Positions 30,812 to 57,728 of a stretch of 64,000 nucleotides of DNA are shown piece after piece. The DNA is from Pedobacter gandavensis (lineage in GTDB: Bacteria; Bacteroidota; Bacteroidia; Sphingobacteriales; Sphingobacteriaceae). The notes under the pieces are model-generated. The model was not told the DNA's origin. It searched no databases and saw only the letters and a list, made by a program, of their open reading frames with translations. The position numbers were made by a program, and so were the translations under genes. The stretch's first letter is position 1. Every line of letters starts with the position of its first letter. The stretch is taken from contig NZ_WNXC01000011.1 in assembly GCF_014172405.1 (NCBI RefSeq), positions 1-64,000 on the forward strand, read 5' to 3'.

Positions 30812-33800
30812 ATGAAACAGATGTACTTAAAGTGTATGGCCGTTTTGTTATTAAGCGTAATAACAATAACTGCTTATGCGCAACAAAAAGTTACCGGTAC
30901 GGTAACGGAAAAATCAGGGCAGCCCATCCCTGGCGTAAGTGTAACAGAAAAGGGCTCAAAAAATGGAACTTCAACTAATGCAGATGGAAAGTTTAGCATT
31001 TCTGTAAAGAAAGGCGCAACATTAGTGTTTTCTTCTGTAGGCTTAGGTACTAAAGAAGTAAATGTAGGAAATAACGCAAGCCTTGGAAATGTGGTGCTTG
31101 AGGATGATGCAAATGCCCTGAATGAAGTTGTAGTAACGGCCTTAGGTATCAAAAGAGAAAAGAAATCTTTAGGATATGCGATGCAGGAACTTAAAGGGGA
31201 AACTTTGGTAGATGCTAGAGAACCTAACCTGGTAAACGCCTTGTCAGGTAAGGTTGCTGGTTTGCAAATTACCCGTTCTAGTAGCGGCCCGACTGGTTCA
31301 TCCAAAATTACGTTAAGAGGTAACAACTCACTTACGGGTGAGAACCAACCCTTAATTGTGGTAGACGGTGTACCTATGGATAACTTTACAGGTGCTAAAA
31401 ATAATGATTTTTCTAATCCTAGTTTGGATATGGGTAGCGGTTTAGCCGATATCAATCCGGAAGATATCGAAAGCATGTCGGTTCTAAAAGGCCCAACGGC
31501 TTCCGCCCTTTATGGATCAAGAGCAGGTAATGGTGTGATCTTAATTACCACAAAATCAGGTAAAGCACAAGCTGGTCTTGGAATCACAGTTACTTCCTCT
31601 TTGGGAATTGAAAGTGTTTTTACTGGTCCTAATTTGCAAAATTCATTCGGACAAGGAGAAAATAGCATTTATAAAAATATCTCAAACGCAAGTTGGGGAC
31701 CTCACATTGAAGGGCAACTGGTTACAAAATGGAATGGTGAGCAAGTGCCACTTCAAAGTTTTGATAACATAGGGAATTATTTTCAAAATGGTATTTCATT
31801 AAACAACGGGATTTCATTCCAGCAACAATACAAAGGAACGTCTATTTATACTTCCCTAAATCGTGCTGACGATAAAAGTGTTATTCCTGGTGTTAAATTG
31901 ACCAGAACAAATTTAACAGCAAGAGCCGTGAGTAAATTTGGAAAGGACGATCGTTGGACAACAGATACTAAAGTTCAGTACATCAATAGCAACGCAGAAA
32001 ATAGACCTTTATTAGGTTCAAGAAGTGAAAATGCTTTTGCCGCAATTTATAACTTGCCAAGATCAATGGATATCCGTGATTTTAGTGCTGCCAAAAAAGC
32101 AGACGGCAATATGTTGTGGTACGGCGGAGGTAATCAGATCAACCCTTACTGGGCACGTCAATATAACTTGAATCAGGATATTAGAGATCGTTTCTTAATG
32201 AACGGATCATTGAAATATCAATTCAATAACTGGTTAACTGCAGAAGTAAAAGGTGGTGCGGATATGTATACGACCAACACGGAGACTAAAGTGTATGGCG
32301 GTAGTCCAATTGTTTCTACAGGAAGATACGGTGCAGGTAAGAACGTTTTCACTGAAACAAATTTCAGTACTTTAATTACTGCTAAACAAGATAATTTATT
32401 CAGCAAAGTTGGTGGTGCAATGACCTTGGGTGGAAATCTAATGTCAAGTAAAGCTTCTGGCTTAGCGGCAAACTCAGGTGAATTGGTTGTGCCAGACTTT
32501 TTCTCGTTAAACAACGGTGTAAACAGAGCAACCATAGAAGAAGACTTCAGAACAAAAAAGATCAACTCGGTATATGGATCAGGTCAGCTTAATTGGGATC
32601 AGTATTTATTCCTGGATGTGACCTTTAGAAATGACTGGACTACTACTTTGAACAGCAATAACCGTTCTTATTTCTATCCTTCTGTGAGTACCTCTTTCGT
32701 TTTTTCTGACATGATTACTAAAACAGGTGGAACATTGCCTTCTTGGATGAGCTACGGTAAAGTGAGAGCTTCTTATGCTGAGGTAGGTAATGATCTTGAT
32801 GCTTATAAGCTATACAATACGTATACCATCAGTAAGGATCCAAACGGAAATACGACAGCTTCAAGAAATAAAGTTTTAAATGATCCCAATGTAAAAAGCG
32901 AGTTGATTAAAGCATTTGAAGTAGGTGCGGAGATGAGATTTTTCGATAGTAAGTTTGGTTTTGATATTGCTTATTATAAATCAAATGCAACCAGACAACT
33001 ACTGGAAATCTCGATGGACCCTCTGAGTGGTTATGAGAAAAGAAGGGTAAATGCTGGTGATATTCAAAATACTGGATTTGAAGCAATGTTAGATGCAAGA
33101 ATGATGTCAAATCAAAATGGTTTGAACTGGAATATGTTGCTAAACTTCTCAAGAAATAACAATACAGTTAAAGAAATAACTCCTGATGTTCGTGAATATC
33201 AATTAGGTGGCTATGATGATGTATATGTTTTAGCGGTAACCAATCAAAAATATGGAGAGATTTATGGAAGTAAATACCTTAGAGTAGAAGATGCTTCCAG
33301 CCCTTTTAATGGTCAATTGATTCTTGATGCAGATGGTTTGCCTCAAAGAGGTGCACAAAAAACAAGACTTGGAAATCAGCAGGCAAACGCTTTACTAGGT
33401 TTAACCAATAGTTTTGCTTACAAAGGATTTGGATTGTCATTCCTTGTAGATGCCCGTTTCGGTGGTCAAATTTTTTCTGGAACCAATGCTGCAATGCAGG
33501 AGAACGGAACTGCAGCAATTACAGCTCCTAATGGTTTAAGAGAGCAAATGGTAGTGGGTGGTGTGATCTTAAATGGTGGCCAATATGTTCAGAATAGTAT
33601 TCCGGTAACTCCAGAAAGATATTGGGCTAAAGTTCATAGCTATGGAAACCTTGGAATCGGGGAAGAAAACATCTATAGTGCAACTAATATTCGCTTAAGA
33701 AATGTTCAGTTAAACTATACTATTCCAACCAAATTCCTTTCTAAAACACCTATTCAACGTGCAAAAATTGGTGTGTCCTGCAATAATGTATGGTTAATTT

Positions 33801-33925
33801 CAGGTGATATGAATGGCATTGACCCGGAGTCTGTATACGCTACAAAGGGCAATGCTACTGGATTTGAAAATTTCAGCGCGCCAACTACACGTACATTCTT
33901 ATTCAACTTAACACTGGGCTTCTAA
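30812..33925 (+). CDS. SusC/RagA-type TonB-linked outer-membrane transporter
   Basis: The 1037-residue protein has a signal peptide ending near ITAYAQQ, a CarboxypepD_reg domain (about 25-95, KVTGTVTEKSGQPIPGVSV), a plug (about 100-240, with NEVVVTALGIKREKKSLGYA, TLRGNNSL and VLKGPTASALYGSRAGNGVI), and a beta-barrel to the C-terminus (TRTFLFNLTLGF). SusC proteins import glycans or peptides across the outer membrane with a SusD lid and TonB energy. The SusD partner starts 42 bp downstream. The upstream ROK regulator suggests a sugar-type ligand. No STN domain is present, so it is not wired to an ECF anti-sigma. Confidence 0.95.
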   Translation: MKQMYLKCMAVLLLSVITITAYAQQKVTGTVTEKSGQPIPGVSVTEKGSKNGTSTNADGKFSISVKKGATLVFSSVGLGTKEVNVGNNASLGNVVLEDDANALNEVVVTALGIKREKKSLGYAMQELKGETLVDAREPNLVNALSGKVAGLQITRSSSGPTGSSKITLRGNNSLTGENQPLIVVDGVPMDNFTGAKNNDFSNPSLDMGSGLADINPEDIESMSVLKGPTASALYGSRAGNGVILITTKSGKAQAGLGITVTSSLGIESVFTGPNLQNSFGQGENSIYKNISNASWGPHIEGQLVTKWNGEQVPLQSFDNIGNYFQNGISLNNGISFQQQYKGTSIYTSLNRADDKSVIPGVKLTRTNLTARAVSKFGKDDRWTTDTKVQYINSNAENRPLLGSRSENAFAAIYNLPRSMDIRDFSAAKKADGNMLWYGGGNQINPYWARQYNLNQDIRDRFLMNGSLKYQFNNWLTAEVKGGADMYTTNTETKVYGGSPIVSTGRYGAGKNVFTETNFSTLITAKQDNLFSKVGGAMTLGGNLMSSKASGLAANSGELVVPDFFSLNNGVNRATIEEDFRTKKINSVYGSGQLNWDQYLFLDVTFRNDWTTTLNSNNRSYFYPSVSTSFVFSDMITKTGGTLPSWMSYGKVRASYAEVGNDLDAYKLYNTYTISKDPNGNTTASRNKVLNDPNVKSELIKAFEVGAEMRFFDSKFGFDIAYYKSNATRQLLEISMDPLSGYEKRRVNAGDIQNTGFEAMLDARMMSNQNGLNWNMLLNFSRNNNTVKEITPDVREYQLGGYDDVYVLAVTNQKYGEIYGSKYLRVEDASSPFNGQLILDADGLPQRGAQKTRLGNQQANALLGLTNSFAYKGFGLSFLVDARFGGQIFSGTNAAMQENGTAAITAPNGLREQMVVGGVILNGGQYVQNSIPVTPERYWAKVHSYGNLGIGEENIYSATNIRLRNVQLNYTIPTKFLSKTPIQRAKIGVSCNNVWLISGDMNGIDPESVYATKGNATGFENFSAPTTRTFLFNLTLGF

Positions 33926-42555: not shown

Positions 42556-43146
42556 GTGCAAACGAGTATTGAAAATCAGGATTTATTAGAGAAGGTAGCT
42601 TCAGGGGACTGGGAAGCATTTGCTGCGCTATATAATACCTATGTGCCTAAACTTTATCGTTTTATTTATCCATTTGCCAATCAGAATAAAGAAGATACAG
42701 AAGAAGTTATTCAGGATGTATTCCTTAAAGTATGGATGCGGAAAGAAAAGATTGCAGAACTGCGGTCTTTTGAATCCTATCTTTTTAAAATGGCGAAAAA
42801 TCAGCTGCTGGATCAACGGGGGCGTCAGAGTTCACAGCTACGCCTGATCACTAAGGTAGGGAATGATGCCTGTAAGGAGCTAGCCTCCGTCCATGATCAA
42901 TTGGTATATGATGAGTATTATAAAATAGCAAAGCAGGCACTACAGGATTTATCTCCGCAAAGGCGTAGGATTTTTGACATGCGCATGGAAGAGGAGATGT
43001 CTATAGATGAAATAGCTAAAGCGCTGAACATTTCTACATCTGCCGTAAAGAAGCAACTTTACGAAGCCATTCATACCATTAAAAAGGAGCTGCGTCATAA
43101 AACCGGCTGGCCTTTGTTATGCTGGTTTATTTTTATTCTTTCATAG
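42556..43146 (+). CDS. FecI-type ECF sigma factor with hydrophobic C-terminal tail
   Basis: The 196-residue sigma factor starts at a GTG, since no in-frame ATG precedes the conserved region. Region 2 is at about 20-90 (DTEEVIQDVFLKVWMRKE, SFESYLFKMAKNQLLD) and the region 4 helix-turn-helix at about 130-180 (LSPQRRRIFDMRMEEEMSIDEIAKAL). The last 12 residues (WPLLCWFIFILS) form a hydrophobic tail, which could attach it to the membrane or to FecR. The FecR gene follows after 90 bp, then an STN-bearing SusC, the full three-part surface-signalling relay. Confidence 0.93.
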   Translation: MQTSIENQDLLEKVASGDWEAFAALYNTYVPKLYRFIYPFANQNKEDTEEVIQDVFLKVWMRKEKIAELRSFESYLFKMAKNQLLDQRGRQSSQLRLITKVGNDACKELASVHDQLVYDEYYKIAKQALQDLSPQRRRIFDMRMEEEMSIDEIAKALNISTSAVKKQLYEAIHTIKKELRHKTGWPLLCWFIFILS

Positions 43147-43236: not shown

Positions 43237-44445
43237 ATGGAAAGGCAGGATATAGAAAATATTTTAGATAAATTCTCAAAAGGAATTGCTTCAGAAACCG
43301 AACACCAGGTATTTAATGAATATCTGGCGGAACTGGATGATGATGCTTATGAAATACTGCTTATGGCGTATCAGGATAAGCTTACTGATGAGCTCAAATA
43401 TGAGCTTCCTGATCCTCTTTTATTGGGTAAAATTAAAGAGAAAGCCCTTCCTAAAGCAGTAAAACGATATAAATTGAAAACAATTTATGGCTATGCAGCG
43501 GCTGCAATTCTGCTTATTAGTTTATCTGTAACGATGTTTCTGAACCAGGATATTCCGCATGAAATACCTGTGCAATATGGCAAGCATCAGGAGTACGCGA
43601 TAAAAGCACCGGAAAATAAGGCCGTCCTGACCCTCGCTAATGGTACCGAAATCAGTCTTACTGATGCTGCAAATGGGAAGATTGCAGAGCAATCAGGAGT
43701 AAGAATTACTAAGACTTCCGATGGGCAATTGATCTATGATATAGCTGCGGGGAAGGAAACCGATGCTTCAAACCATAGAAAAACAGGTCAATCTGCATAC
43801 AATAGCATTTCCACTCCTGCAGGGAGCAAATATCAGATTAACCTTCCAGATGGAACCAGAGTCTGGTTAAATGCCATGTCCAGCATAAAATATGCGCCAC
43901 AGTTTATGGGTAAAGAAAGGTTGGTTATCCTAACCGGTGAAGCCTATTTTGAAGTGGCAAAACATGAAGGTGTACCTTTTAAAGTAAGCAGCAGAGGGCA
44001 AGTCGTGGAAGTGATGGGAACACATTTTAACATCAATGCCTACCAGAATGAACCCGCAGTAAAAACTACACTCGCAGAAGGAAGTGTACTGGTGAATATG
44101 GAACCAGACATTAAAAAGCAAGCATACACAAACCAGAAGAGACTCGTTCCCGGGGAACAATCCGTTTTAGAAAATGGAGCGTTGAACGTAAAGAAAGTTG
44201 ACCTGCAAGAAGTCCTCGCCTGGAAAGATGGCTATTTTTCTGTAGATGATGACCTGAAAACCATCATGAGAAACATCGAAAGGGTGTATAACGTAGAGGT
44301 TGTCTATCAAGGAGAAATAGAAAATGTAGAACTCGGAGGAATCGTTTCAAAGTCAAGAAGCCTCGCCGATATCCTCAATGTATTAGAATCAACAGAAAAA
44401 TTCCGATTTAAAGTAGAAGGAAGGAGGATCACCGTTATGAAGTAA
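43237..44445 (+). CDS. FecR-family anti-sigma factor
   Basis: The 402-residue inner-membrane protein has a cytoplasmic anti-sigma part (1-80), one membrane span (about 83-102), and a periplasmic FecR domain (about 187-290) with STPAGSKYQINLPDGTRVWL and ILTGEAYFEVAKHEGVPF. The C-terminal DUF4974 domain (about 325-400, WKDGYFSVDDDLKTIMRNIE) contacts the SusC STN domain in this family. It holds the FecI-type sigma until the transporter binds its ligand. Its start has no Shine-Dalgarno at normal spacing; a GGAGGT at 43189-43194 is too far upstream. Confidence 0.94.
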   Translation: MERQDIENILDKFSKGIASETEHQVFNEYLAELDDDAYEILLMAYQDKLTDELKYELPDPLLLGKIKEKALPKAVKRYKLKTIYGYAAAAILLISLSVTMFLNQDIPHEIPVQYGKHQEYAIKAPENKAVLTLANGTEISLTDAANGKIAEQSGVRITKTSDGQLIYDIAAGKETDASNHRKTGQSAYNSISTPAGSKYQINLPDGTRVWLNAMSSIKYAPQFMGKERLVILTGEAYFEVAKHEGVPFKVSSRGQVVEVMGTHFNINAYQNEPAVKTTLAEGSVLVNMEPDIKKQAYTNQKRLVPGEQSVLENGALNVKKVDLQEVLAWKDGYFSVDDDLKTIMRNIERVYNVEVVYQGEIENVELGGIVSKSRSLADILNVLESTEKFRFKVEGRRITVMK

Positions 44446-44612: not shown

Positions 44613-47600
44613 ATGAAATTTTACGATTTTAACTCGTATAGGGCATCCTATGTCAAGGATAAGATATTACTAACCATGAAATTAACCCTGTTATTGAGTT
44701 TTACGGTAATGCTGCAAGTCAGCGCCTCCACCTACGCTCAGAATAAAATCACCTTATCCAGGACAAATACATCCCTGGAACGGGTGTTAAAAGCTATTGG
44801 GAAGCAAAGTGGTTATGATCTGGTTTATATTTCCAATTCCATAAAAAATGCGAATCTGGTAAATATTAACGTCGACAAGCTCTCTTTAGAAGAAACACTA
44901 GAAAAACTATTCATCAATCAACCATTAACCTATTCTGTTAACAATAAGATAATTACGGTTAAAGTCCGTAAAGAAAGCCCATCCTTTTCCCAGCAAATGT
45001 TCCTCATGACTGATGTTTCTGGAAAAGTATTAGATGAAACCGGACAAGGGATTCCAGGCGCAACGGTAAAAGTAAAGCGCTCCGGACAAGTCGCCATCAC
45101 CGATGCACAGGGCAAATTCGCCATTAAAGGCCTATTGAACGATGATGTCCTCGTAATCAGCTATGTTGGGTTCAACACTCAGGAAGTAAAAGTCAGCAAT
45201 AATGTAGTCATTAAACTGGTTCCTACTTCCAATGATTTGGATGGCGATATCGTGATTGTTGGTTATGGTAAGCAAAAAAAAGCTACAGTAACCTCCTCTG
45301 TGGCTCAGGTAACCAGAGAAGAAATCAACAGCACCCCAGGTGCAAGTTTACAGAACATGTTAACCGGCAAGGTAACAGGGCTAACCACCTTGCAGAGAAC
45401 CGGCCAACCAGGTAATGATGCTGCCCAGATCTATGTGAGGGGAGTAAGTACACTCTCAGGTTTCTCTACCTCACCATTAATTTTAGTAGACAACATAGAA
45501 TATGATTTGAGTCAGTTTGCAATGATTGACCAAAATGAAATTGAAAATGTTTCCATATTAAAAGATGCTGCTTCAACCTCCATCTATGGAATTAAAGGTG
45601 CCAATGGTGTTATCCTCGTGACTACAAGAAGAGGTAAATTGGGTAAACCAGTGATCAATCTTAGGTCGGAAGTAGGAGTTAATTTGGCAGTATCCCCATT
45701 TAAAGCATTGGGTTCTTACGATGCGGCGGTTTTACGCAATGAAGCACTGAAAAATGACAACCTTAACCCTCAGTTTACACAGCAGGATCTGGATCTTTTT
45801 CAATCTGGTGAAGATCCTTATGGTCATCCAGATATCAATTGGTACGACAAAGTTTTCGGTAAGTCCGCCATTCAAACAGACCACAACGTAGACATCTCCG
45901 GAGGTACTGAAAAGGTGAAGTATTTCACTTCTGTAGGCTACCTGTTTCAAGATGGTTTATTCAATAAGATGGAATACAAAGGCGCAATGCCGGTCCCTGA
46001 TAAATCACCAATCAATACCAATTACTATTTTAAACGGTATAAATTCAGATCCAATCTAGACATAGATGCAACACCCTCGCTTAAATTAAGCCTGGATCTA
46101 AATGGCACTTTCAGTGAGCGGAATTCACCGGATGTTGGAAACCTGGGCTTCCAGATGACACAATACGAGTATGTGAATCCTTACGCTTATCCGGTTTACA
46201 ATCCAGACGGAAGTTTCGGCTTTGCAAACCCTGCAGTCTTCTCTCCAAGAGATGGTATGAATAGTGTAGCCGCAATTGTGGCCTTAAGTGGTTACAACAG
46301 AAATTTCAACAATTTCCTGAGCTCTAATTTTTCTGCAGTTCAGAAATTGGATGCCATCACAAAAGGCTTGTCTCTAAAAGGACTTTTCGCCTATTCAAAT
46401 AACAATGCTGCCACACGTACCCTAAGCAGAGGAGCAATTCCTTCTTTTTATTACAATCCGGTGGATGGCAGCTATACACCCAAAGATATTAACGTATATC
46501 GGGTGTCTCCATTGAGCCTTGGCTATACCGGATCAGGAACCGATCTGCCTGCCAAAATCATGACCTATCAGGGAATTTTAACCTATCAGCGAACTTTTGG
46601 AGACCATGACGTTGCGGGACTTCTGCTTTACAACAGATCCAGTAGAATTGTGGCCGCAAAACCACCAAGTAACTTCCTGGGATATACATTCCGTGGGACG
46701 TATAATTTTAAAGAAAAATACCTGTTTGAAGTGAGTGGTGCCTATAACGGTTCCTCTAATTTTACGTCTCAGAAGCGATATACCTGGTTCCCCGCAGTCT
46801 CCGCAGGCTGGAACATCTCTAAAGAATCTTTTATGGAGAAAGCCCTGCCTTTTATCGAGATGTTTAAATTCAGAGGCTCTTATGGTTATACCGGAAGTGA
46901 TGATATTGCTGGTTACCAGTATGGTTATGAAAGTTATTATAGCAATGGTACAAACTATAATCTAGGGGAAACAGCGAATTCTTTTCCAACCATTTTTGAA
47001 GGAAAACTTGGAAATAATGATGTGACCTGGGCAACAGAACGGAAAGCGAATATCGGATTGGATTTCTCCATGTTTAGTGGAAAACTGAGTGGTAGCTTTG
47101 ATTACTTCGATAATTTTAGGGATAAAATCCTAATCAATCGCCGGACAGTACCATCTTCTTTTGGGGTACCAACCTCAACTTTACCTCCCGTGAATCTGGG
47201 TGCCGTATCTAATAAAGGATTTGAAATCGAATTGACCCATAAATCCAGAATCGGCAACTTAGGCTATAGCATAAAAACAAATTTCAGCTATGCTAAAAAT
47301 AAAATAGTCTTTATGGATGAACCTGAACCGGATGCTTCAAAACCATGGCAGAGAGGAACAGGACTATCGGTTGGACTGGCTAAAAAATACATCTGGACCG
47401 GCCAGTTTTACACACAGGATGAGGTCAATGATCCTGCAACACCAAAACCTTCTGGAACAATCAAAGCAGGTTGGTTAAAGTATAAAGATCTGGACGGAAA
47501 TGGCATCATCAACGTAGAAGATATGGCATTTGTGGGTAATCCAAACGTCCCAAATACGGTTATAGGAACCACCATAGGTTTCGATTACAAAGGCTTTAGT

Positions 47601-48044
47601 ATTTCCATGCTTTTCCAGTCTAACCTGAATGGAGAATCTTATACCGGTTTTGACTCCGCAGTGCCTTTCAAGACACAGTTACAAGAATTTCATAAGGAAA
47701 GATGGACGCCGGAAACAGCTACCACCGCTACTTTTCCTGCATTGACCACCACGTTTGCAGGAACTTACATGAACCCTGAGGGAAACCTGTCTACTTTTTG
47801 GGCTACCAGTACTAATTTCCTACGACTGCGTTCTGCGGAGATTGGATATAGAGTGCCAAAAACATTTGCAGATAAATTAGGAATGAGCGCAGTTAGGATT
47901 TATGCAAATGGATACAATCTTTTTACCATCTCCGATTTTTATAAACGCTATCAATTTGATCCTGAGGTTGCTAGTAATGTCTACGGATATGTGTATCCAA
48001 CCACGCGATTAATAAACATTGGATTATCGGTAACGCTTAAATAG
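44613..48044 (+). CDS. SusC/RagA-type TonB-linked transporter with STN signalling domain
   Basis: The frame opens at 44556, but the ATG at 44613 gives the typical long signal region (MKFYDFNSYRASYVKDKILL then a hydrophobic core ending ASTYAQ); the product is 1143 residues. The order is: STN/secretin-like domain (about 50-115), which talks to FecR; CarboxypepD_reg (about 135-210); a plug with VRGVSTLSGFSTSPLILVD and ILKDAASTSIYGIKGANGVI; then the barrel ending INIGLSVTLK. It both imports a ligand and reports its presence to the sigma/anti-sigma pair just upstream. Its SusD starts 7 bp later. Confidence 0.95.
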   Translation: MKFYDFNSYRASYVKDKILLTMKLTLLLSFTVMLQVSASTYAQNKITLSRTNTSLERVLKAIGKQSGYDLVYISNSIKNANLVNINVDKLSLEETLEKLFINQPLTYSVNNKIITVKVRKESPSFSQQMFLMTDVSGKVLDETGQGIPGATVKVKRSGQVAITDAQGKFAIKGLLNDDVLVISYVGFNTQEVKVSNNVVIKLVPTSNDLDGDIVIVGYGKQKKATVTSSVAQVTREEINSTPGASLQNMLTGKVTGLTTLQRTGQPGNDAAQIYVRGVSTLSGFSTSPLILVDNIEYDLSQFAMIDQNEIENVSILKDAASTSIYGIKGANGVILVTTRRGKLGKPVINLRSEVGVNLAVSPFKALGSYDAAVLRNEALKNDNLNPQFTQQDLDLFQSGEDPYGHPDINWYDKVFGKSAIQTDHNVDISGGTEKVKYFTSVGYLFQDGLFNKMEYKGAMPVPDKSPINTNYYFKRYKFRSNLDIDATPSLKLSLDLNGTFSERNSPDVGNLGFQMTQYEYVNPYAYPVYNPDGSFGFANPAVFSPRDGMNSVAAIVALSGYNRNFNNFLSSNFSAVQKLDAITKGLSLKGLFAYSNNNAATRTLSRGAIPSFYYNPVDGSYTPKDINVYRVSPLSLGYTGSGTDLPAKIMTYQGILTYQRTFGDHDVAGLLLYNRSSRIVAAKPPSNFLGYTFRGTYNFKEKYLFEVSGAYNGSSNFTSQKRYTWFPAVSAGWNISKESFMEKALPFIEMFKFRGSYGYTGSDDIAGYQYGYESYYSNGTNYNLGETANSFPTIFEGKLGNNDVTWATERKANIGLDFSMFSGKLSGSFDYFDNFRDKILINRRTVPSSFGVPTSTLPPVNLGAVSNKGFEIELTHKSRIGNLGYSIKTNFSYAKNKIVFMDEPEPDASKPWQRGTGLSVGLAKKYIWTGQFYTQDEVNDPATPKPSGTIKAGWLKYKDLDGNGIINVEDMAFVGNPNVPNTVIGTTIGFDYKGFSISMLFQSNLNGESYTGFDSAVPFKTQLQEFHKERWTPETATTATFPALTTTFAGTYMNPEGNLSTFWATSTNFLRLRSAEIGYRVPKTFADKLGMSAVRIYANGYNLFTISDFYKRYQFDPEVASNVYGYVYPTTRLINIGLSVTLK

Positions 48045-48051
48045 GACAATT

Positions 48052-49800
48052 ATGAAAAAGATATATTATACACTTACTATAGGCATTGCCCTTATTCTTG
48101 GGGTTACAACAGGATGTAAAAAAGCAAATAGTTTCCTGGATAGCCAATCCACTAACGATCTGGATGAAGTAACTGTCTTTGCAGATAGTGCCAGAACTTC
48201 TGCTTTCCTGCTTGGGATTTACGGACGTATTGGTTTTGAGTCGGATCCCGTAGAAGTAAATCAGCTTGGTGCACCTTTTACTGCGGCAACTGATGAAGCA
48301 GAATCCCGCTGGCCAGGTGGACAAAACGTACCCATTCAAATGTTTCAAGGGAGCTTTGGTACAGGCTTTATCAATGCAAACAATCAAAACTGGACTTTTT
48401 TATATACTGGGATAAGAATGGTGAATATCTACCTTAAAAATGTAGATAATGCACCCTTATCGGCCAATTTAAAAGCAAAGTCGAAAATGGAAGCCAGATT
48501 CTTAAGGGCCTATTTTTATCATTTTCTGCTGAAATTTTATGGAGGTGTACAATTGGTGGGAGATGATGTTAAAGGTCTCTCAGATGAGAATGTAAACCCA
48601 AGAGCTAGTTTTGAAGCTACCGTCAATTACATTGTTTCTGAATTGGATGCTGTTGCGGCTCAATTGCCTTTAAAGAACCAGGGCCTGGATTATGGAAGAG
48701 TGACCAAAGGAGCCGCATTGGCATTGAAAGCAAGAGTGTTACTTTCCGCAGCAAGCCCATTGTTTAATGGAGGAAGTTTTGCTACAGATGCTTCCGTAAT
48801 TCCATTAACCGCCTACCCAACCGCTGATGCAAGTAGATGGCAGAAAGCAATGGAGGCAAGTAAGGCGGTGATGGACCTGAATCAATACCAACTGGTTGAA
48901 GACAATATCACCAGGCCAGGGAATGGATTTTATAAAATGTTCCTGGATAGAGTAAATTCAGAAGCTATTTTTCAAAGAATGCTCGGCAATAATAAATTGT
49001 TTGAAAGCAATTGGCTACCACCAACAAGAGGTGGGACCTTTTTAATTTATCCCTCTCAACAACTGGTAGATGCTTTTCCCATGAAAAATGGTAAACTTAA
49101 AGGGGATCCAGGATCCGGTTTTGATGCCGCAAACCCGTATGCCAACCGGGATCCACGATTAGATTATACCGTAATTTATAATGGCGCGATGTATTTTGAT
49201 GGTCGGGTTAATGCCATGGCACCCGTATTTACTTATGTTGGTGCTGCACAGGATGGAATTCAGGCCGCAACCGCAAATACAGCCACAAATACCGGGTACT
49301 ATTGTCGCAAAATGTGTGATGAGCTAATTTATGGAAATAGCAACGCCAACGCGCAACGCTGTCAGCCGCTAATCCGCTATGCGGAGGTACTGCTTAATTA
49401 TGCAGAAGCAGCAAATGAAAGCGGACAAACCAATACTGCCTTGGATCAATTGATCGCCCTGAGGAAACGTGCAGGAATACTTGCAGGGGCCGACTTTAGG
49501 TACGGTATTCCAAGTACGATGTCGCAAATCGATGCCAGATCACTCATTCAAAATGAAAGATTTATTGAGCTGGCTTTTGAGGAACAGCGCTACTTCGATT
49601 TAAGAAGATGGAGGCTAGGGGCAGATTACGACGGAAAATTCCTGAAAGGTATGAGAGTAACCAAAACTGGTAACAATTATACCTATGCAGAAATCAACGT
49701 TAGAACTGCCCGATACTTTAAAGTAAACAGCTATTTATTCCCTATTCCAGTTGCCGAAATCAGCATCAACAGGGAAATGAAACAGAATCCAGGATGGTAA
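48052..49800 (+). CDS. SusD/RagB-family surface lipoprotein (first pair)
   Basis: The 582-residue lipoprotein has the lipobox TTGC with Cys22, followed by KKANSFLDSQSTND. SusD features include ARFLRAYFYHFLLKFYGGVQLV, the helix ALALKARVLLSAASPLFNGG, and the late LIRYAEVLLNYAEAANESGQ and RSLIQNERFIELAFEEQRYF segments, with the usual QNPGW end. It works as the lid and glycan binder of the SusC starting at 44613. It is recognisably related to the second SusD at 52598-54244, which fits a tandem duplication. Confidence 0.95.
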   Translation: MKKIYYTLTIGIALILGVTTGCKKANSFLDSQSTNDLDEVTVFADSARTSAFLLGIYGRIGFESDPVEVNQLGAPFTAATDEAESRWPGGQNVPIQMFQGSFGTGFINANNQNWTFLYTGIRMVNIYLKNVDNAPLSANLKAKSKMEARFLRAYFYHFLLKFYGGVQLVGDDVKGLSDENVNPRASFEATVNYIVSELDAVAAQLPLKNQGLDYGRVTKGAALALKARVLLSAASPLFNGGSFATDASVIPLTAYPTADASRWQKAMEASKAVMDLNQYQLVEDNITRPGNGFYKMFLDRVNSEAIFQRMLGNNKLFESNWLPPTRGGTFLIYPSQQLVDAFPMKNGKLKGDPGSGFDAANPYANRDPRLDYTVIYNGAMYFDGRVNAMAPVFTYVGAAQDGIQAATANTATNTGYYCRKMCDELIYGNSNANAQRCQPLIRYAEVLLNYAEAANESGQTNTALDQLIALRKRAGILAGADFRYGIPSTMSQIDARSLIQNERFIELAFEEQRYFDLRRWRLGADYDGKFLKGMRVTKTGNNYTYAEINVRTARYFKVNSYLFPIPVAEISINREMKQNPGW

Positions 49801-49846
49801 TCTACTTGGATTTTGGAATTTATCAATCAATCTTAAACCGTAACTC

Positions 49847-52576
49847 ATGATCTCATATTTATATCATACCATTCGACGCCAGAAGCGATTGTTATTGCTC
49901 CATACAGGCATCGTTATTTTTACAGTCGCCAGCGGGAATGCCCAAGAGAAAACAGATAGCCTCCAACTTAGGCAGGTCAGCGCAATTGGTGTGTTGGAAG
50001 GTGGAAAAGCATTTACTTCCAACCCAACCTCGTCTATTTATAATGCTTTATCCGGTAGGTTGGCAGGATTATACACTTTGCAAGGTACCGGGCAACCAGG
50101 CCTTGATGCACCAAATGTTATCCTAAGAGGTAGGGTGCCATTGATCGTTGTAGATGGGATTCCCAGAGACCTTACCGGAATTAATCCAGAGCAAATTGCC
50201 TCAGTAACGGTGTTAAAGGATGCTTTGTCTACCGCGATGTATGGCAATAGAGGCGCAAATGGGGTTTTATTGATCACCACAAAAAAAGGAAAAAAAGCTG
50301 CGGGCTATTCTTTTGAAGCCAGCGCACAAACAGGACTGAGTAGCAGCTTGAAAGAACGTAAAGCGCTTTCTGCAGGTGATTACGCCACACTTTATAACGA
50401 AGCACTCAGAAATGATGGCCGTCAGCCGATTTATACACCCGAAGCAATTGCCGGCTATAAAAGCGGTTCAGACCCTTTCCTGTTCCCTAATGTAAATTGG
50501 AATGATCAGATTTTTAAAAACAATGCACCATTTAGCAGATATAACCTGAATTCTGAAGGCTCAGATAAAAATGTGAATTATTTTATCTCTCTTGATTATT
50601 TGAAACAAGAGGGCTTACTCAAGCCTCTTGCCCAAAATACTTACAATACCAACACAGATTATGAGCGTTTTGTGTTCAGGACCAATCTGGAGATGCAGTT
50701 GACGCCACGGTTAAAAGGAAGTATCAATTTGTACTCTAGTATCGGAGATCAGAATTCGCCAGGATCCACTGGCTTATTAATTTACAACTCGATATTGAAC
50801 ACCCCTTCAAGTGCTTATCCTGTGCTTAACCCAGATGGATCTTTAGGAGGGAATGCCTTGTTTAGCAATAACATTTATGGCCAATCAGTCTATAGAGGAT
50901 ACCAGCGAAATTCGACTTCAGATGGGTTTGGGGATCTTGCCTTAACCAGGCAAATGGATGATGTATGGAAAGGATGGTGGATCAAAGCCAATATTTCATT
51001 CTATGCAAAATCATTACAGCTGATAGATCGTAGTAAGAATTTTCAAACTTTTCAATTGCAGATCGATCCGGTTACCGGACAAGCAAGCTACCAGCGTTAT
51101 GGTACCCAAACTTCTCAGGTAAATAATTCGGCTGTGATCAATAGAAATCAGCAATTCTTCGCTGAAGGTGCTACAGGGTATAGCCATGAAGTAGATGGAA
51201 ATAAACTGGATGTAGTAATGGCTTATAACCTGCAAAGTTATAGAAGTAATAGTCAGCTGCCTCAAAACTTTAATACCGGAAGGGTATCTGCAAACTATAG
51301 TATTAAAGACAAGTATGTACTAGAGGCGACTGGTTCCTACAGTGGTAATAATTGGTATAAAAAAGGAAAACAGTATGATTTTTATCCTGCAGGAGGCCTG
51401 AGCTGGAACCTGAATAATGAAGATTTCTTTAATCAAGATGGGTTCTTGAATACCTTAAAACTAAGGACAACCTATGGAAAGGTGGGAATGATTGATCCAT
51501 TATATTATGCCTATCTGTATTCTTATGTGAACACAGGGAATGCTTATTATTTTGGGACAGGACCTTCTGCCGTTCAAGGAACGCAGGAAGCAGGCTTGCC
51601 TTCTTCAGTTGCCGCCTCAAAATCAACGAAATTTGATGCTGGTTTGGATATGGGCTTTGCGAACAACAGAGGTTATGTACAGGCAGATTATTTTATAAAT
51701 ACTTATACTGATGTACTACAGATTCGTGGACAAGCGTCATCGCTTTTGGGGATTGCATATCCTTTAGAAAATCTGGGTAAATCCAGAATGTCTGGTCTGG
51801 AATTTACTGCCGGATGGAAGGATAAAATCGGAGATGTTGGCTACCATATTAGTGGTAATGTATCCATGAACCGCAGTAAAATTATTGAAAATGATGAGCC
51901 GAAAATGCCTTACAGCTGGATGTCTAAAAAAGGACAGCCAATGGAGCAGCTTTACGGTTATATGGCCGATGGTTATGTGCAAACTGCTGGAGAAGGCCCG
52001 GTAGTAGAAGGCTATAAATCTCAAGCCGGTGATATCAAATACAAAGATTTAAACAATGATGGGGTCATCAATCAATATGATGTAACCGCAATCGGTGGCA
52101 ATAAACCATTGGTGTATTATGGTTTTAACCTGGGCTTTGATTACAAGAATTTTGAGGTTTCAGTTTTGTTTCAGGGCATCACCAACCGAAATATAATGGT
52201 TACCGGTTTAGGAGAATGGGCTTTTCAAAACAACGGTACAGGGAATGGATTTGAGCAGCACCTGAACAGATGGACTCCGGAAACAGCCTCAACCGCAAGC
52301 TATCCGCGTTTATCAGTCGGACCAAACATCAATAACAATGTGGGCTCTTCGTATTGGATCCAAAAGGCAAACTTCTTAAGGTTGAAAAATGCAGAAATCG
52401 CCTATAAGCTTCAAGGTAGCTTCCTTGAAAAAATTAAGGTGAAACAGGTTCGCCTGTTTGTCAATGGAGCCAACCTGCTTACTTTCTCAAAAATTAAGCG
52501 CTTTGATCCAGAAGGATTAAGTCTGGATTATCCATTACAAAGGATGATTAACGGTGGTTTAACAGTTAAGTTTTAG
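49847..52576 (+). CDS. SusC-like TonB-linked transporter lacking the N-terminal extension domains
   Basis: The 909-residue protein has a signal sequence ending near SGNAQ (residue 33) and moves almost directly into the plug (about 40-170: SSIYNALSGRLAGLYTLQGT, VILRGRVPLIVVDGIP, VLKDALSTAMYGNRGANGVL). Both the STN and the CarboxypepD_reg domains of the preceding SusC are missing. The barrel then continues to GGLTVKF. Plug and barrel segments align by eye with the first SusC, so it is a diverged tandem copy without the signalling module. The SusD partner follows after 21 bp. Confidence 0.93.
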   Translation: MISYLYHTIRRQKRLLLLHTGIVIFTVASGNAQEKTDSLQLRQVSAIGVLEGGKAFTSNPTSSIYNALSGRLAGLYTLQGTGQPGLDAPNVILRGRVPLIVVDGIPRDLTGINPEQIASVTVLKDALSTAMYGNRGANGVLLITTKKGKKAAGYSFEASAQTGLSSSLKERKALSAGDYATLYNEALRNDGRQPIYTPEAIAGYKSGSDPFLFPNVNWNDQIFKNNAPFSRYNLNSEGSDKNVNYFISLDYLKQEGLLKPLAQNTYNTNTDYERFVFRTNLEMQLTPRLKGSINLYSSIGDQNSPGSTGLLIYNSILNTPSSAYPVLNPDGSLGGNALFSNNIYGQSVYRGYQRNSTSDGFGDLALTRQMDDVWKGWWIKANISFYAKSLQLIDRSKNFQTFQLQIDPVTGQASYQRYGTQTSQVNNSAVINRNQQFFAEGATGYSHEVDGNKLDVVMAYNLQSYRSNSQLPQNFNTGRVSANYSIKDKYVLEATGSYSGNNWYKKGKQYDFYPAGGLSWNLNNEDFFNQDGFLNTLKLRTTYGKVGMIDPLYYAYLYSYVNTGNAYYFGTGPSAVQGTQEAGLPSSVAASKSTKFDAGLDMGFANNRGYVQADYFINTYTDVLQIRGQASSLLGIAYPLENLGKSRMSGLEFTAGWKDKIGDVGYHISGNVSMNRSKIIENDEPKMPYSWMSKKGQPMEQLYGYMADGYVQTAGEGPVVEGYKSQAGDIKYKDLNNDGVINQYDVTAIGGNKPLVYYGFNLGFDYKNFEVSVLFQGITNRNIMVTGLGEWAFQNNGTGNGFEQHLNRWTPETASTASYPRLSVGPNINNNVGSSYWIQKANFLRLKNAEIAYKLQGSFLEKIKVKQVRLFVNGANLLTFSKIKRFDPEGLSLDYPLQRMINGGLTVKF

Positions 52577-52597
52577 GAGTTACAAACTGAAAAAATT

Positions 52598-54244
52598 ATG
52601 AAAGCGACAAAAATTATTATCCTGCTATATATAGGAATACTGGTCTCCTCCTGCAAAAAATATGAAGAGGTACCGAATGAATTGGTGAACCCGGATATCA
52701 TTTACGATCAGTTTGATAAGAATGGCACCTATGCGCAATGGGTAAGAAATGATCTTTATACGTATTTACCAGATGGTTTTAATCGGATAGACAATGTAGT
52801 ACTCGATGCCGCTACCGATGATGCAGTAGCTTCGAGGTACGGAAGTCCGATAGAGTTATTGGCAAAATCAGGGATCACAGCCGGAACAAATCCAGATGAT
52901 CGCTGGGCAACAAGCTATGCCGCCGTTAGAAAGGTGAATATATTCCTATCCAAGATTGATGTGGTGCCTTATGATGCCGCTTCCATCAAGTTTTGGAAAG
53001 CGGAAGCCCGATTCATCAGAGCCATGAACTATTTTGAGTTGCTCAAAAGATATGGTGGCGTGCCACTATTGGGAGATCAGGTATTTGGACTTAATGACAA
53101 CCTCAGCAATATTCCAAGAAATACCTTCGATGAAGGTGTGCAGTATATTCTGGCCGAATGTGAGGCGATCAAACCATTGCTAAGAACAGAGCCGGTATTG
53201 GATACTTTCCTGGGTAGTATCACGAGGGGAGCTGCGTATGCTTTAAAATCAAGAGTGCTTTTGTATGTAGCCAGCCCACTCAATAATCCTGCTAACGACC
53301 AGAATAAATGGTTGGCAGCGGCAAATGCAGCAAAAGACCTGATCAATTTAAATGTTTATAGCCTTACTCCAGCCTTTACCAGCGCATTCCTGAATAGAAA
53401 AAATTCTGAAGTGATTCTAGCTTATCAAAAAGCACAAAACAGAACACTGGAAACAGGAAATGCACCCATTGGCTTTGCAGAGCCTAATGCCAGTAATGGT
53501 TATGTAAATCCTTCGCAAAATTTGGTAGATGCTTTCCCGATGAGTGATGGTAGAGCAATTGATGCCACTGCTGCAACTTTGCCATATAAAGCACAGGATC
53601 CGTATGCAAATAGAGACCCAAGGTTAGGATTAACGGTTTTCTACAACGGAGCAAGTTGGTTAAGTAGAGCAGTAGAAACATTTGATGGCGGTTTAGACAG
53701 ACCTGGGGGGATGCGTTTACAAACCCGTACCGGTTATTATATGCGTAAGTTCCTGGGCCTTTTCGGTACGGCAACTGCCTATCAGGATCAAACACATAAT
53801 TTCCCAATTTTCAGGTACGCCGAAATTCTGCTAAACTATGCCGAAGCAATCAATGAAACAGGAAATCAGGCGGAGGCTTTAACGCAACTGAAATTGATCA
53901 GAAACCGTGCTGGAATACCTTTAGGTAATGTGGTTGGTTATGCCCACGGAATCAGAACAGACCTAAATCAGGTAGAGATGCGCAAAGTAATTCAAAATGA
54001 AAGAAGGATTGAGATGGCCTTTGAAGAGCAACGTTTCTGGGACATCAGACGCTGGAAAATTGCAGAACAGGTTGGGAATTCTTCAGTAAGAGGAATGCAA
54101 ATCGTAAAACAAGGAAGTACCTTTACCTATACACCGATCGTAGTCGATCAGCTGAGTTTTGTAGCACCGAAAATGTATTTATACGCCATACCATTGAAAG
54201 AAATCGTAGCGGATCCTGCATTGCAGCAAAACCCAGGCTATTAA
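52598..54244 (+). CDS. SusD/RagB-family surface lipoprotein (second pair)
   Basis: The 548-residue lipoprotein has the lipobox VSSC with Cys19. It shares with the first SusD the helix EARFIRAMNYFELLKRYGGV, the AYALKSRVLLYVASPLNNPA segment, FRYAEILLNYAEAINETGNQ, IQNERRIEMAFEEQRFWDIR and the QNPGY end. It is the partner lid of the compact SusC just upstream. A strong terminator begins 11 bp after its stop, separating it from the sulfatase gene. Confidence 0.94.
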   Translation: MKATKIIILLYIGILVSSCKKYEEVPNELVNPDIIYDQFDKNGTYAQWVRNDLYTYLPDGFNRIDNVVLDAATDDAVASRYGSPIELLAKSGITAGTNPDDRWATSYAAVRKVNIFLSKIDVVPYDAASIKFWKAEARFIRAMNYFELLKRYGGVPLLGDQVFGLNDNLSNIPRNTFDEGVQYILAECEAIKPLLRTEPVLDTFLGSITRGAAYALKSRVLLYVASPLNNPANDQNKWLAAANAAKDLINLNVYSLTPAFTSAFLNRKNSEVILAYQKAQNRTLETGNAPIGFAEPNASNGYVNPSQNLVDAFPMSDGRAIDATAATLPYKAQDPYANRDPRLGLTVFYNGASWLSRAVETFDGGLDRPGGMRLQTRTGYYMRKFLGLFGTATAYQDQTHNFPIFRYAEILLNYAEAINETGNQAEALTQLKLIRNRAGIPLGNVVGYAHGIRTDLNQVEMRKVIQNERRIEMAFEEQRFWDIRRWKIAEQVGNSSVRGMQIVKQGSTFTYTPIVVDQLSFVAPKMYLYAIPLKEIVADPALQQNPGY

Positions 54245-54255
54245 TCTATAAAACC

Positions 54256-54284
54256 AGGAGCAACAGCAATGTTGCTCCTTTTTT
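54256..54284 (+). terminator. Rho-independent terminator between susD and the sulfatase
   Basis: The perfect 9-bp stem AGGAGCAAC/GTTGCTCCT (54256-54264 with 54271-54279) has a 6-nt loop and a T6 end. It lies only 15 bp before the sulfatase ATG, so sulfatase expression likely rests on partial readthrough. Confidence 0.88.
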
Positions 54285-54299
54285 AAGGAAATTAAGAAT

Positions 54300-55703
54300 A
54301 TGAAAAAATCAATTTTTACAGCGCTGATCATCACGCTTGCGCTATTTTCTCAGGCACAACAAAAACCAAATGTGGTGTTTATTCTAGCCGATGATATGGG
54401 CTATGGGGATCTTGGTGCATACGGTCAGCGACTGATTGAAACCCCAAACATTGACCGTCTGGCAGCTGATGGTATGCGTTTCACGCAATTCTATGCAGGA
54501 ACCTCTGTATGCGCACCCTCCAGAGCTTCCCTAATGACCGGCCTCCATACCGGACACAGCCCGATAAGAGGGAATTATGAAATAAACCCCGAAGGTCAGT
54601 TGCCATTGCCCGATGCTACTTTTACCATGCCCGAAATGTTCAAGAAAGCAGGATATACGACCGGCTGTTTTGGGAAATGGGGAATGGGATACCCGGGTTC
54701 TGAAGGAGATCCTGTAAAACAAGGAATAGACCAGTTTTATGGTTATAACTGCCAGCGGCAGTCGCATAATTTTTTCCCAGATCATCTTTGGGATAATGAA
54801 AAACGTGTGGAGCTTAACAATACAACGACACAACAAAAGGATTATGCACCGGAAATGATTCAAAAACGTGCCATGTCATTTATGGAAGCCAATCAGTCCA
54901 AACCATTCTTTATGTACCTGTCCTATACTCTGCCACATGCCGCCTTGCAATTACCTGATGGCGATCTATCCTTTGAATACTATAAGAAAAAATTCAATGA
55001 GCAGCCAAAAATGATTAAAAAGGAATGGGATGGTAAAGGATATCAGCCACAAGCTTATCCTCATGCCGCTTATGCAGCCATGGTAACCCGTCTGGATAAC
55101 TATGTAGGAGCAGTAGTGGCGAAACTGAAAGCCTTGGGTCTCGATAAAAACACGCTGATTGTCTTTACCAGTGATAACGGACCACACCGCGAAGGTGGAA
55201 ATGAACCGGAATTCTTTAACAGCAGTGGTGGATTTAAAGGGATCAAAAGACAACTGACAGAAGGTGGCATTAGGGAGCCTATGATTGTGGCCTGGCCAGG
55301 GAAAATTAAAAACGGACAGGTATCCGATCATGTTGGTGCTTTCTGGGATTTCTTTCCAACTTTTGCAGCCCTTGCCGGTCAACCGGCGCCGCCACAAACT
55401 GATGGCCTTTCTATCTTACCTACCTTACTTAAAAAAGGAAAACAGCAACAACACCCTTTTCTTTACTGGGAATTTCATGAAGATGGAGGAAGACAAGCAG
55501 TACGAATGGGGAAGTGGAAAGCCATCAAAGAACAGGTGATCAGGAATCCAAATGCCAAGATTCAATTGTATGATCTTAGTGTAGATCCACAGGAAATCAG
55601 TGATTTATCGGAAAATCATCCTGATATCGTAAAACAGGCACTGCAAATTATGCAAAGAGAACATACGGAGCACAAAGATTTTCCTTTTATCTCTAAAAAA
55701 TGA
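54300..55703 (+). CDS. Secreted type I sulfatase (arylsulfatase family)
   Basis: The 467-residue enzyme has a signal peptide (MKKSIFTALIITLALFSQAQ) and the metal-binding start NVVFILADDMGYGDLG. The sulfatase signature CAPSRASLMTG has Cys71, the residue converted to formylglycine in active type I enzymes. Later motifs include GKWGMG, TLIVFTSDNGPHREGG and the C-terminal YDLSVDPQEISDL. It hydrolyses sulfate esters, probably from a glycan bound by the two SusCD pairs upstream (inference). Conversion of Cys71 needs a maturase that is not in the window. Confidence 0.94.
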   Translation: MKKSIFTALIITLALFSQAQQKPNVVFILADDMGYGDLGAYGQRLIETPNIDRLAADGMRFTQFYAGTSVCAPSRASLMTGLHTGHSPIRGNYEINPEGQLPLPDATFTMPEMFKKAGYTTGCFGKWGMGYPGSEGDPVKQGIDQFYGYNCQRQSHNFFPDHLWDNEKRVELNNTTTQQKDYAPEMIQKRAMSFMEANQSKPFFMYLSYTLPHAALQLPDGDLSFEYYKKKFNEQPKMIKKEWDGKGYQPQAYPHAAYAAMVTRLDNYVGAVVAKLKALGLDKNTLIVFTSDNGPHREGGNEPEFFNSSGGFKGIKRQLTEGGIREPMIVAWPGKIKNGQVSDHVGAFWDFFPTFAALAGQPAPPQTDGLSILPTLLKKGKQQQHPFLYWEFHEDGGRQAVRMGKWKAIKEQVIRNPNAKIQLYDLSVDPQEISDLSENHPDIVKQALQIMQREHTEHKDFPFISKK

Positions 55704-55835: not shown

Positions 55836-57728
55836 ATGCAAATTAATTCTATTGAAGAGTATCAAGAAACTTATAAGTTGAGCGTGGACCAACCTGAACA
55901 GTTCTGGGCAGGTATCGCTGATAATTTCTTGTGGAGAAAGAAATGGGATAAAGTACTATCCTGGAATTTCTCAGAACCAAATATCAAATGGTTCGAGGGC
56001 GCTAAGCTAAACATCACAGAAAACTGTCTTGACCGTCACCTTGCAGAAAATGGCGATAAACCTGCCATTATCTGGGAACCTAACGATCCTACAAAAGACA
56101 GCATTACCCTAAGTTATAAAATATTACATGAGCAGGTTTGCCGTTTCGCAAATGTGCTGAAGAAGAATGGCGTTAAAAAAGGCGATCGTGTATGTATCTA
56201 TATGCCGATGGTGCCTGAACTTGCCGTGGCAGTTTTGGCTTGTGCGCGTATTGGTGCAGTACATTCTGTAGTTTTTGGTGGGTTCTCTGCCAAATCTATT
56301 GCCGACAGGATCAATGATGCTGAATGTAAAGTCGTAATCACTGCCGATGGAGCATTCAGAGGAAACAAACAGATTCAATTGAAAGAAGTAATTGATGATG
56401 CTTTGATTGGTTGTCCAACAGTAGAACGTGTCATCGTTTTAACGCATACCAGGACACCAGTATCTATGCTGAAAGGTCGTGACATCTGGTGGGAAGATGA
56501 AATTAAACTGGTAGATACCAACTGCCCGGCAGAAGAAATGGACGCCGAGGACCTGTTGTTTATCTTATATACATCCGGTTCTACTGGTAAGCCAAAAGGG
56601 GTAGTACATACCATTGGCGGCTATATGGTGTATGCAGGTTATACTTTCTCTAATGTGTTTCATTACCAGAAAGATGAAGTATTCTTCTGTACTGCTGATA
56701 TCGGCTGGATTACCGGTCACTCTTATATCGTGTACGGTCCGCTTTCTCAGGGAGCAACCACACTGATGTTCGAAGGTATCCCTACTTATCCTGATGCATC
56801 CAGAATGTGGCAGGTGGTAGAAAAACATAAAGTAAACATCCTGTACACTGCGCCAACGGCGATTCGTTCCCTAATGAGCTTCGGATTAGCGCCTTTAAAC
56901 GGTATCGATATGAGCTCTCTTCGTGTATTAGGCTCCGTAGGAGAACCGATCAATGAAGAAGCATGGCACTGGTTTGATGAAAACATCGGAAAAGGAGAAT
57001 GTCCAATCGTTGATACCTGGTGGCAGACAGAAACCGGTGGAATCATGATCTCGCCAATAGCCTTTGTTACGCCAACAAAACCTAGTTTCGCAACCTTACC
57101 ATTGCCTGGTATCCAACCAATTTTGGTAGACGAAAAGGGTGTTGAGATTGAAGGTAATGGTGTAAATGGTAACCTTTGTATCAAATTTCCTTGGCCTGGA
57201 ATGTTGCGCACCACTTATGGCGATCATGAGCGTTGCAAGCTGACTTATTTCTCTACATATGAAAACCTTTACTTTACCGGTGATGGTTGCTTAAGAGATG
57301 AAGATGGTTATTATAGAATCACCGGAAGGGTAGATGATGTGATCAATGTATCTGGTCACCGTATTGGTACTGCAGAAGTAGAAAATGCCATCAACATGCA
57401 TGCAGGTGTTGTTGAAAGTGCAGTAGTAGGTTTCCCTCATGAGGTAAAAGGACAAGGTATTTATGCTTTTGTAATTTTCCCAAATATCCATGATGATGCA
57501 GACCTTACCCGTAAGGATATCCTTCAAACGGTAACCCGTGTAATTGGTGCCATTGCTAAACCGGATAAAATTCTTTTTGTTACAGGTTTACCTAAAACGC
57601 GCTCAGGTAAAATCATGCGACGCATCTTAAGGAAGATCGCAGAAGGTGACATCAGTAATCTTGGCGATATCAGTACTTTACTTGATCCAACCGTAGTGGA
57701 AGAGATCATTGAAAAGTCTAAGAAATAG
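55836..57728 (+). CDS. acs: Acetyl-CoA synthetase (AMP-forming)
   Basis: Acs activates acetate to acetyl-CoA through acetyl-AMP. The 630-residue protein has the adenylation P-loop LYTSGSTGKPKG, the DTWWQTETGGIMI core motif, the TGDGCLRDEDGYYRITGR hinge region and VINVSGHRIGTAEVE. The C-terminal PKTRSGKIMRRILR contains the catalytic, acetylation-regulated lysine. N-terminal substrate residues resemble the acetate-specific family rather than longer acyl-CoA ligases. It is a single-gene unit with a clear promoter and a strong terminator. Confidence 0.96.
   Translation: MQINSIEEYQETYKLSVDQPEQFWAGIADNFLWRKKWDKVLSWNFSEPNIKWFEGAKLNITENCLDRHLAENGDKPAIIWEPNDPTKDSITLSYKILHEQVCRFANVLKKNGVKKGDRVCIYMPMVPELAVAVLACARIGAVHSVVFGGFSAKSIADRINDAECKVVITADGAFRGNKQIQLKEVIDDALIGCPTVERVIVLTHTRTPVSMLKGRDIWWEDEIKLVDTNCPAEEMDAEDLLFILYTSGSTGKPKGVVHTIGGYMVYAGYTFSNVFHYQKDEVFFCTADIGWITGHSYIVYGPLSQGATTLMFEGIPTYPDASRMWQVVEKHKVNILYTAPTAIRSLMSFGLAPLNGIDMSSLRVLGSVGEPINEEAWHWFDENIGKGECPIVDTWWQTETGGIMISPIAFVTPTKPSFATLPLPGIQPILVDEKGVEIEGNGVNGNLCIKFPWPGMLRTTYGDHERCKLTYFSTYENLYFTGDGCLRDEDGYYRITGRVDDVINVSGHRIGTAEVENAINMHAGVVESAVVGFPHEVKGQGIYAFVIFPNIHDDADLTRKDILQTVTRVIGAIAKPDKILFVTGLPKTRSGKIMRRILRKIAEGDISNLGDISTLLDPTVVEEIIEKSKK

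Follow-up and report, generated by a model that had tools for sequence, protein, structure and literature searches.

Tandem SusCD pairs of Pedobacter gandavensis as a possible twin module in which one SusC lacks the standard Ton box and N-terminal extension

A 64,000-nucleotide stretch of the soil bacterium Pedobacter gandavensis (contig NZ_WNXC01000011.1, positions 1 to 64,000; hereafter the window) encodes two SusC/SusD pairs in tandem, directly preceded by genes for an extracytoplasmic function (ECF) sigma factor and a FecR-type anti-sigma factor. The first pair, SusC1/SusD1, belongs to a family termed B here, and the second, SusC2/SusD2, to a family termed A. SusC2 retains its plug, barrel and SusD partner and was found beside B at every A locus examined, but it lacks the standard Ton box, the N-terminal extension (NTE) and most of one plug loop. 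We propose, on evidence that we regard as evenly balanced, that the locus is one twin SusCD module in which A would depend on B, not two independent importers. The nearest named relative found for this genome is Pedobacter polysacchareus.

Architecture of the locus

The four SusC and SusD genes form a block with spacers of 7, 46 and 21 bp, and together with the two regulatory genes they are arranged as follows:

42556..43146, + strand: ECF sigma factor, GTG start (Sigma70_r2 and r4; NCBIfam sigma70-ECF)
43237..44445, + strand: FecR-type anti-sigma factor (FecR and FecR_C)
44613..48044, + strand: SusC1 (B family), with STN, NTE (CarbopepD_reg_2), standard Ton box, Plug and barrel (profile matches)
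48052..49800, + strand: SusD1, lipoprotein lid of SusC1 (SusD_RagB, SusD-like_3)
49847..52576, + strand: SusC2 (A family), with Plug and barrel, without STN, NTE and standard Ton box; plug loop short
52598..54244, + strand: SusD2, lipoprotein lid of SusC2 (SusD_RagB, SusD-like_3)

An initial annotation, made from the letters alone, had described the two pairs as relatives, and this agrees with identities of 32% over 948 columns (SusC1 vs. SusC2) and 38% over 520 columns (SusD1 vs. SusD2) and with the Plug and SusD domains common to both. It had also described STN and CarboxypepD_reg domains on SusC1 and their absence from SusC2, which was said to enter the plug almost at once. According to Pfam, SusC1 carries STN, CarbopepD_reg_2 and Plug (residues 87-136, 154-220 and 242-352 of a 1162-aa frame that is open from 44556), and its annotated start at 44613 agrees with the place where the orthologous frames in two other loci, L031 and L037, have their first start codon (1143 aa in both). 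Plug is the only Pfam domain seen in SusC2; neither PF13715, representing the NTE, nor a hidden Markov model (HMM) of the NTE gives a match, and the TIGR04056 match starts at profile position 104 of 981.

SusC2 belongs to the SusC/RagA family, with 629 bits for TIGR04056 (cut-off 368) and 52.9 for the TIGR04057 signature (cut-off 46.2). Its barrel region aligns by sequence, strands not being counted, with the solved SusC 8aa4, and its start is signal-peptide-like by eye. SusD1 and SusD2 both match SusD_RagB and SusD-like_3, which places them in the SusD family. A structure prediction for SusC2 from a 5-protein alignment (window and L031) gave a mean local confidence (pLDDT) of 30 and a predicted template modelling score (pTM) of 0.29 and was not used.

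Co-inheritance of the A and B families

The two pairs are ancient related families, long inherited together as one unit, rather than recent duplicates. Apart from the window, 72 A loci were examined, and each of them had a B gene within the same unit of 4-5 genes. Writing D1 and D2 for the SusD genes of B and A, the order was A-D2-B-D1 in 63 of them, D1-A-D2-B in four and B-D1-A-D2 in three, and the remaining two held an extra SusC in front, which was another SusC in one and an STN-bearing B in the other (L053). The order in the window, B-D1-A-D2, is the reverse of the usual one and recurs in L031, L037 and L199. Another family of the class likewise has A-B units (L205-L207), and a search of 395 genomes of the phylum at E 1e-130 gave no SusC2 match beyond the window's class.

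These loci come from three sources: a SusC2 search that found 56 A places, 43 of which (counting the window) were inspected together with their neighbouring genes; a SusC1 search, in which 20 non-STN places gave 18 further A loci; and chosen places of a later search (12). L205-L208, L210 and L211 were added later from family and phylum searches and lie outside the 72-locus order count. Left out were L050_7 (a SusC2 best hit that is an unrelated SusC), L120 (a 608-aa A fragment), and L115 and L208, which lie at contig ends; the contig of L208 ends after A-D2, and L115 has no A in view. Two B genes therefore stand without a counted A, at L115 (contig end) and L120 (short A fragment).

In a FastTree phylogeny of 145 SusCs and a quick IQ-TREE search of 78 (support given as SH-aLRT), A and B each form a clade with support of 100, and their branching is mirrored. 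Their distance matrices are correlated (Mantel r 0.85 over 33 loci), with 0 of 2000 permutations reaching as high a value. A recent tandem duplication is ruled out by these trees, in which A and B are separate clades. The relatedness of the pairs is thus retained from the initial annotation, with the amendment that they descend from separate ancient clades, yet are co-inherited. A third clade of seven rows, close to A and B, has sigma, FecR and a single SusD, and no A; its sequence matches (as distinct from Pfam assignments) to SusC1 extend through the STN region. The quick IQ-TREE search gave no branching order among A, B and this third clade.

A second A-B unit is present in the same genome (L032, contig C15:210000-229000), in the usual order and with a hybrid two-component system (HTCS) regulator and a glycoside hydrolase family 2 (GH2) enzyme.

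Ton box, plug loop and NTE in family A

Ton boxes were scored with a matrix trained on own-genome SusCs outside A and B rows. Scores above the 95th percentile of shuffled sequences were obtained for 4 of 73 A rows, where chance alone gives 5%, for 76 of 76 B rows and for 58 of 62 other SusCs of the own genome, a control set from which two distant TonB-dependent transporters of L036 were left out. Judged by eye, L200 is the only one of the four A proteins above the null whose top-scoring window coincides with the Ton-box position. Of the four low-scoring controls, L127, L128 and L129 are the Ton-box-less SusCs of three other tandems. The fourth, L183, had its plug start placed wrongly; its Ton box region can be seen in part, and it was labelled Ton-box-positive in the neighbour count given below. 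The best window of SusC2 is at chance level, scoring -4.6 against a null 95th percentile of 4.3, Ton-box sequences being known to be flexible.

In the aligned Ton-box columns of 79 A and 81 B proteins, B reads E-V-V-V-V-G, with 74-94% agreement per residue. A is variable there, but 76% of its proteins have Leu in the position of the Gly of B, mostly followed by Tyr or Phe; SusC2 itself reads RQVSAIGVLEGG. Over the five columns before the Gly/Leu position the entropy is 2.4-3.5 in A vs. 0.5-1.2 in B, and Pro is the commonest residue (26%) at one A column.

The plug loop between the RG and PL motifs, counted from an alignment of 78 rows, has two residues in 33 of 34 A proteins and at least nine in 34 of 34 B proteins. 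The one remaining A row reads 10; it is probably L116, in which, judged by eye, inserted residues directly precede a short RG-QG-V loop. A regular-expression count over all rows often began at an earlier SG and was unreliable, so the alignment count was used. Two other frames of the own genome have 3-residue loops, and a short loop alone is therefore not unique to A.

The state of the NTE is more varied, with at least five changes on the A tree. The NTE HMM matches 28 of 73 A rows (13.9-57.8 bits); of those without a match, 31 have no more than 110 residues ahead of the plug, and in 14 this segment is longer but was not recognised. All 76 B rows match with 53 bits or more, a result that is largely by construction because the HMM was trained on 64 of them; more independent evidence comes from Pfam on single proteins and on the own genome. 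Among six further A proteins, PF13715 was at or above the cut-off in two, below it in two and not listed in two. Loss of the Ton box and of the loop is seen in the deepest A branches as well (L123, L139 and L140) and therefore probably preceded loss of the NTE.

Late starts on the TIGR04056 profile indicate how rare such proteins are. In the own genome, where 56 of 138 candidates were scored, 55 of 56 start at profile positions 1-4 and SusC2 is the sole late starter; three further SusCs above the cut-off, found later, start at positions 99, 49 and 94. None of 42 SusCs over the cut-off starts late in genome G458 (56 of 108 candidates scored), and 1 of 42 does so in G470 (56 of 86 scored), this being an A protein in tandem with B. 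Among 31 genomes of the phylum, with at most 18 proteins scored in each, late starts were listed only in G449, where 10 of 12 listed SusCs start at positions 46-76, nine of them at 70-76. Starts at 70-76 imply that the Ton box should still be in place. This genome may have undergone lineage-wide loss of the NTE.

Integrity of SusC2

SusC2 recurs with 909 aa and 90% identity in both orthologous loci. L031 (P. polysacchareus) has all eight genes of the locus, ordered as in the window, and L037 (genome G076) has seven of the eight, its stretch ending within FecR so that the sigma factor is out of view. Strong purifying selection acts on SusC2, with dN/dS (nonsynonymous to synonymous substitution rates) of 0.041-0.044 compared to 0.042-0.044 for SusC1, at dS values of 1.2-1.3, which are near saturation.

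The gene is the shortest among the full-length SusC matches of its genome (two distant transporters with frames of 898 and 906 aa matched only around the plug and fall outside this comparison), and could on that ground be taken for a decaying pseudogene or the product of a sequencing or assembly error. A pseudogene is ruled out by dN/dS of 0.04, and with two other genomes encoding a SusC2 that is equally long and 90% identical, this explanation has practically no probability. Nor was an N-terminal domain missed through a sequencing error upstream of 49847, which had been named as a possible flaw: SusD1 ends only 46 bp upstream, leaving no room for a hidden domain, and the same 909-aa SusC2 is found in the two relatives.

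Interpretation as one twin module

We infer that SusC1/SusD1 would be the complete half of the module, in which the SusD1 lid and the SusC1 barrel bind the glycan and the Ton box and NTE of SusC1 connect to TonB. The STN domain would pass the presence of substrate to FecR, which would free the sigma factor so that the locus is switched on. SusC2/SusD2 keeps lid, barrel and plug but no longer has the NTE, the standard Ton box or the greater part of one plug loop, and SusC2 would most likely be incapable of an ordinary TonB cycle alone and would serve B. It might do so passively, as the half that captures glycan (perhaps within a mixed dimer of SusC2D2 type), or with an altered, weaker coupling.

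Because SusC2 is strongly selected and always found beside B, dependence on B appears to be the simplest reading. The absence of the standard Ton box and of most of the plug loop from most A proteins casts doubt on independent TonB-driven import. In Bt1763, the SusC of the levan system of Bacteroides thetaiotaomicron, deletion or mutation of the Ton box gave the same phenotype on levan as deletion of SusD, and deletion of the NTE left no detectable growth on levan (PMC7782687). FecA loses both transport and signalling when its box is absent, and the BtuB substitution I9P abolishes transport (PMC11658791). In the light of these phenotypes, it is unlikely that SusC2 works alone as an ordinary importer.

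Several observations weigh against dependence on B. The A proteins show a distinct motif at the Ton-box place (the Leu and Tyr/Phe noted above), which could be a different Ton box, and L200 keeps a Ton-box-like stretch there. Ton boxes tolerate much sequence change (PMC11658791). A recognisable NTE is retained in some A proteins (28 of 73 by HMM, two of six by PF13715), its loss alone need not stop transport, as the late starts of 10 of 12 SusCs in G449 illustrate, and its role may according to the authors lie outside transport itself (PMC7782687). Tandems in which both SusCs have an NTE are common elsewhere (G458 and G470), and co-inheritance can also mean that two parts of one glycan are used.

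The main rival reading takes up the first of these points: SusC2/SusD2 would independently import a different portion of the same glycan by means of a non-standard Ton box ([IV]-x-[VL]-L-[YF]-G) and a particular TonB, without need of the NTE. We regard this as possible, with a lower probability than dependence on B. It would account for the A-specific conserved residues where the box should be, for the intact plug, barrel and SusD2 and for the purifying selection on SusC2, and it accords with the known variation of Ton boxes (PMC11658791) and with the existence of NTE-less SusCs en bloc in G449. Against it, the box columns of A are far more variable than those of B, the residue commonest at one of them is Pro, which at position 9 of BtuB abolishes uptake (PMC11658791), and the plug loop has been lost as well.

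The initial annotation had proposed a division of labour, in which pair one senses and imports and pair two only imports, perhaps a related ligand. That only pair one carries a signalling domain is borne out, STN being present on SusC1 alone, directly behind the ECF sigma and FecR genes. The part assigned to pair two is put in doubt, since nearly all A proteins have lost the Ton box and the plug loop. Two ordinary importers for related ligands, one of them also sensing, are thus improbable, even though both pairs are complete with a SusD; the strict co-occurrence of A and B also exceeds what two free importers would need.

An extension of the dependence on B, which we consider rather doubtful, is that A represents a large family of "passive" SusCs without TonB coupling, working only with an energised sister SusC and possibly in mixed SusCD dimers. 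One half of such a dimer would possibly be driven and signalling, while the other would only capture the glycan or pass it on.

Signalling genes

SusC1 is the sole STN carrier of the two pairs, and the order of sigma factor, FecR and SusC1 is the same in L031. In the stretches fetched for the 72 A loci, HTCS-like regulators were found at 31, FecR at five and neither at 36; L031, L037 and L053 are the only ones of these loci where FecR stands in line ahead of B. STN was found on B in SusC1 of the window and in the extra B copy of L053 (genome G036), and Pfam listed none in six other A proteins or in one other B. The sigma/FecR wiring thus seems to have been added onto B.

The extra copy in L053 (11591-14920) is an STN-bearing SusC behind FecR, without a SusD of its own, directly before an A-D2-B-D1 unit, and in the tree it is the sister of the B of that same unit. 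This copy seems to have arisen recently, by fusion of an STN N-terminus to a duplicated B. In both SusC1 (N-terminal part, 44814-45236) and this copy STN stands before the NTE, the reverse of the order stated in PMC7782687, in which the NTE precedes STN in SusCs having both.

L209 (genome G182) has the same B-D1-A-D2 order as the window, and its B starts with an MKFYDF leader like that of SusC1; by eye no STN segment was visible in this B, and no FecR match was seen in the L209 stretch.

Other tandem SusCs and the substrate

Among 66 SusC frames of the own genome, all five without a Ton box adjoin a SusC with one (at most 6 kb away, same strand), compared to 2 of 61 frames with a Ton box. Ten of the frames have approximate ends. 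The p value of 2e-6 is too favourable, since the distance limit of 6 kb was fixed once the cases were known and the five frames represent about three families. Three of the five come from other SusC families (L212, L213 and L214, on contigs C16 and C11) and share the order SusC without NTE, SusD, an extra gene in two of them, SusC with NTE, SusD. The asymmetric tandem may therefore have arisen more than once. It is not true of every tandem SusCD, as G458, G470 and contig C17 of the own genome hold tandems with an NTE on both SusCs. Genes nearby encode DUF5007 in L212, DUF5008 in L212 and L214, and DUF2264 beside L214 and several A-B loci.

The window also holds the following features:

54256..54279, T run on + strand: terminator-like inverted repeat, 10 pairs, then T run (pattern match only)
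54300..55703, + strand: sulfatase (Sulfatase PF00884)
55836-57728, + strand: acetyl-CoA-synthetase-type gene
30812-33925: further SusC with a standard Ton box region

The sulfatase, whose nearest solved sequences are 7ana and 7an1, adjoins the module in L031 and L037 too, with 87% identity in both. It probably acts on the substrate of the module, and its presence suggests that the ligand is probably sulfated. The terminator-like repeat between SusD2 and the sulfatase is strong, so that expression of the latter may be set apart. A promoter scan gave fewer sites than in shuffled sequences and was not used. In the flanks of a few A-B loci (20 proteins scanned) we found GH2, GH88-like, GH39, GH35, GH16, GH43, DUF2264 and sulfatase; as these enzymes vary, no single substrate follows.

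Comparison with known systems

Tandem SusCD pairs and STN-FecR signalling are already known. A search of the open-access literature by title and abstract found no description of SusCD pair asymmetry, in which one SusC is without Ton box or NTE. The A-B unit offers a fixed pair from one SusC of which nature has removed the standard Ton box, and often the NTE, the sister keeping both. Two questions thereby become testable, namely whether a SusC can function without direct coupling to TonB and whether neighbouring SusCD pairs form mixed complexes. Caution is also needed when glycan use is predicted from genomes, as one SusCD pair should not be equated with one substrate importer.

SusC1/SusD1 resembles the canonical Bt1762-63 levan system of B. 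thetaiotaomicron in barrel, plug, SusD lid, NTE and Ton box. SusC2 is like canonical SusCs in its barrel, plug and SusD lid and in passing TIGR04056, and unlike Bt1763 in being without the NTE, the role of which is described as unknown in PMC7782687, and without the standard Ton box. The xylan system xusABCD of Prevotella bryantii is a single cluster with two genes each for SusC-like and SusD-like proteins (PMC8002723), a likeness to the window in gene content; no xylanase was found among ten window proteins scanned with Pfam. With ECF sigma/FecR/STN-SusC systems the window shares the sigma factor, FecR and an STN domain on its first SusC, and the seven-row single-pair clade keeps the order sigma-FecR-SusC-SusD. 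The window differs from these systems in that its signalling SusC is joined to a second, STN-less pair.

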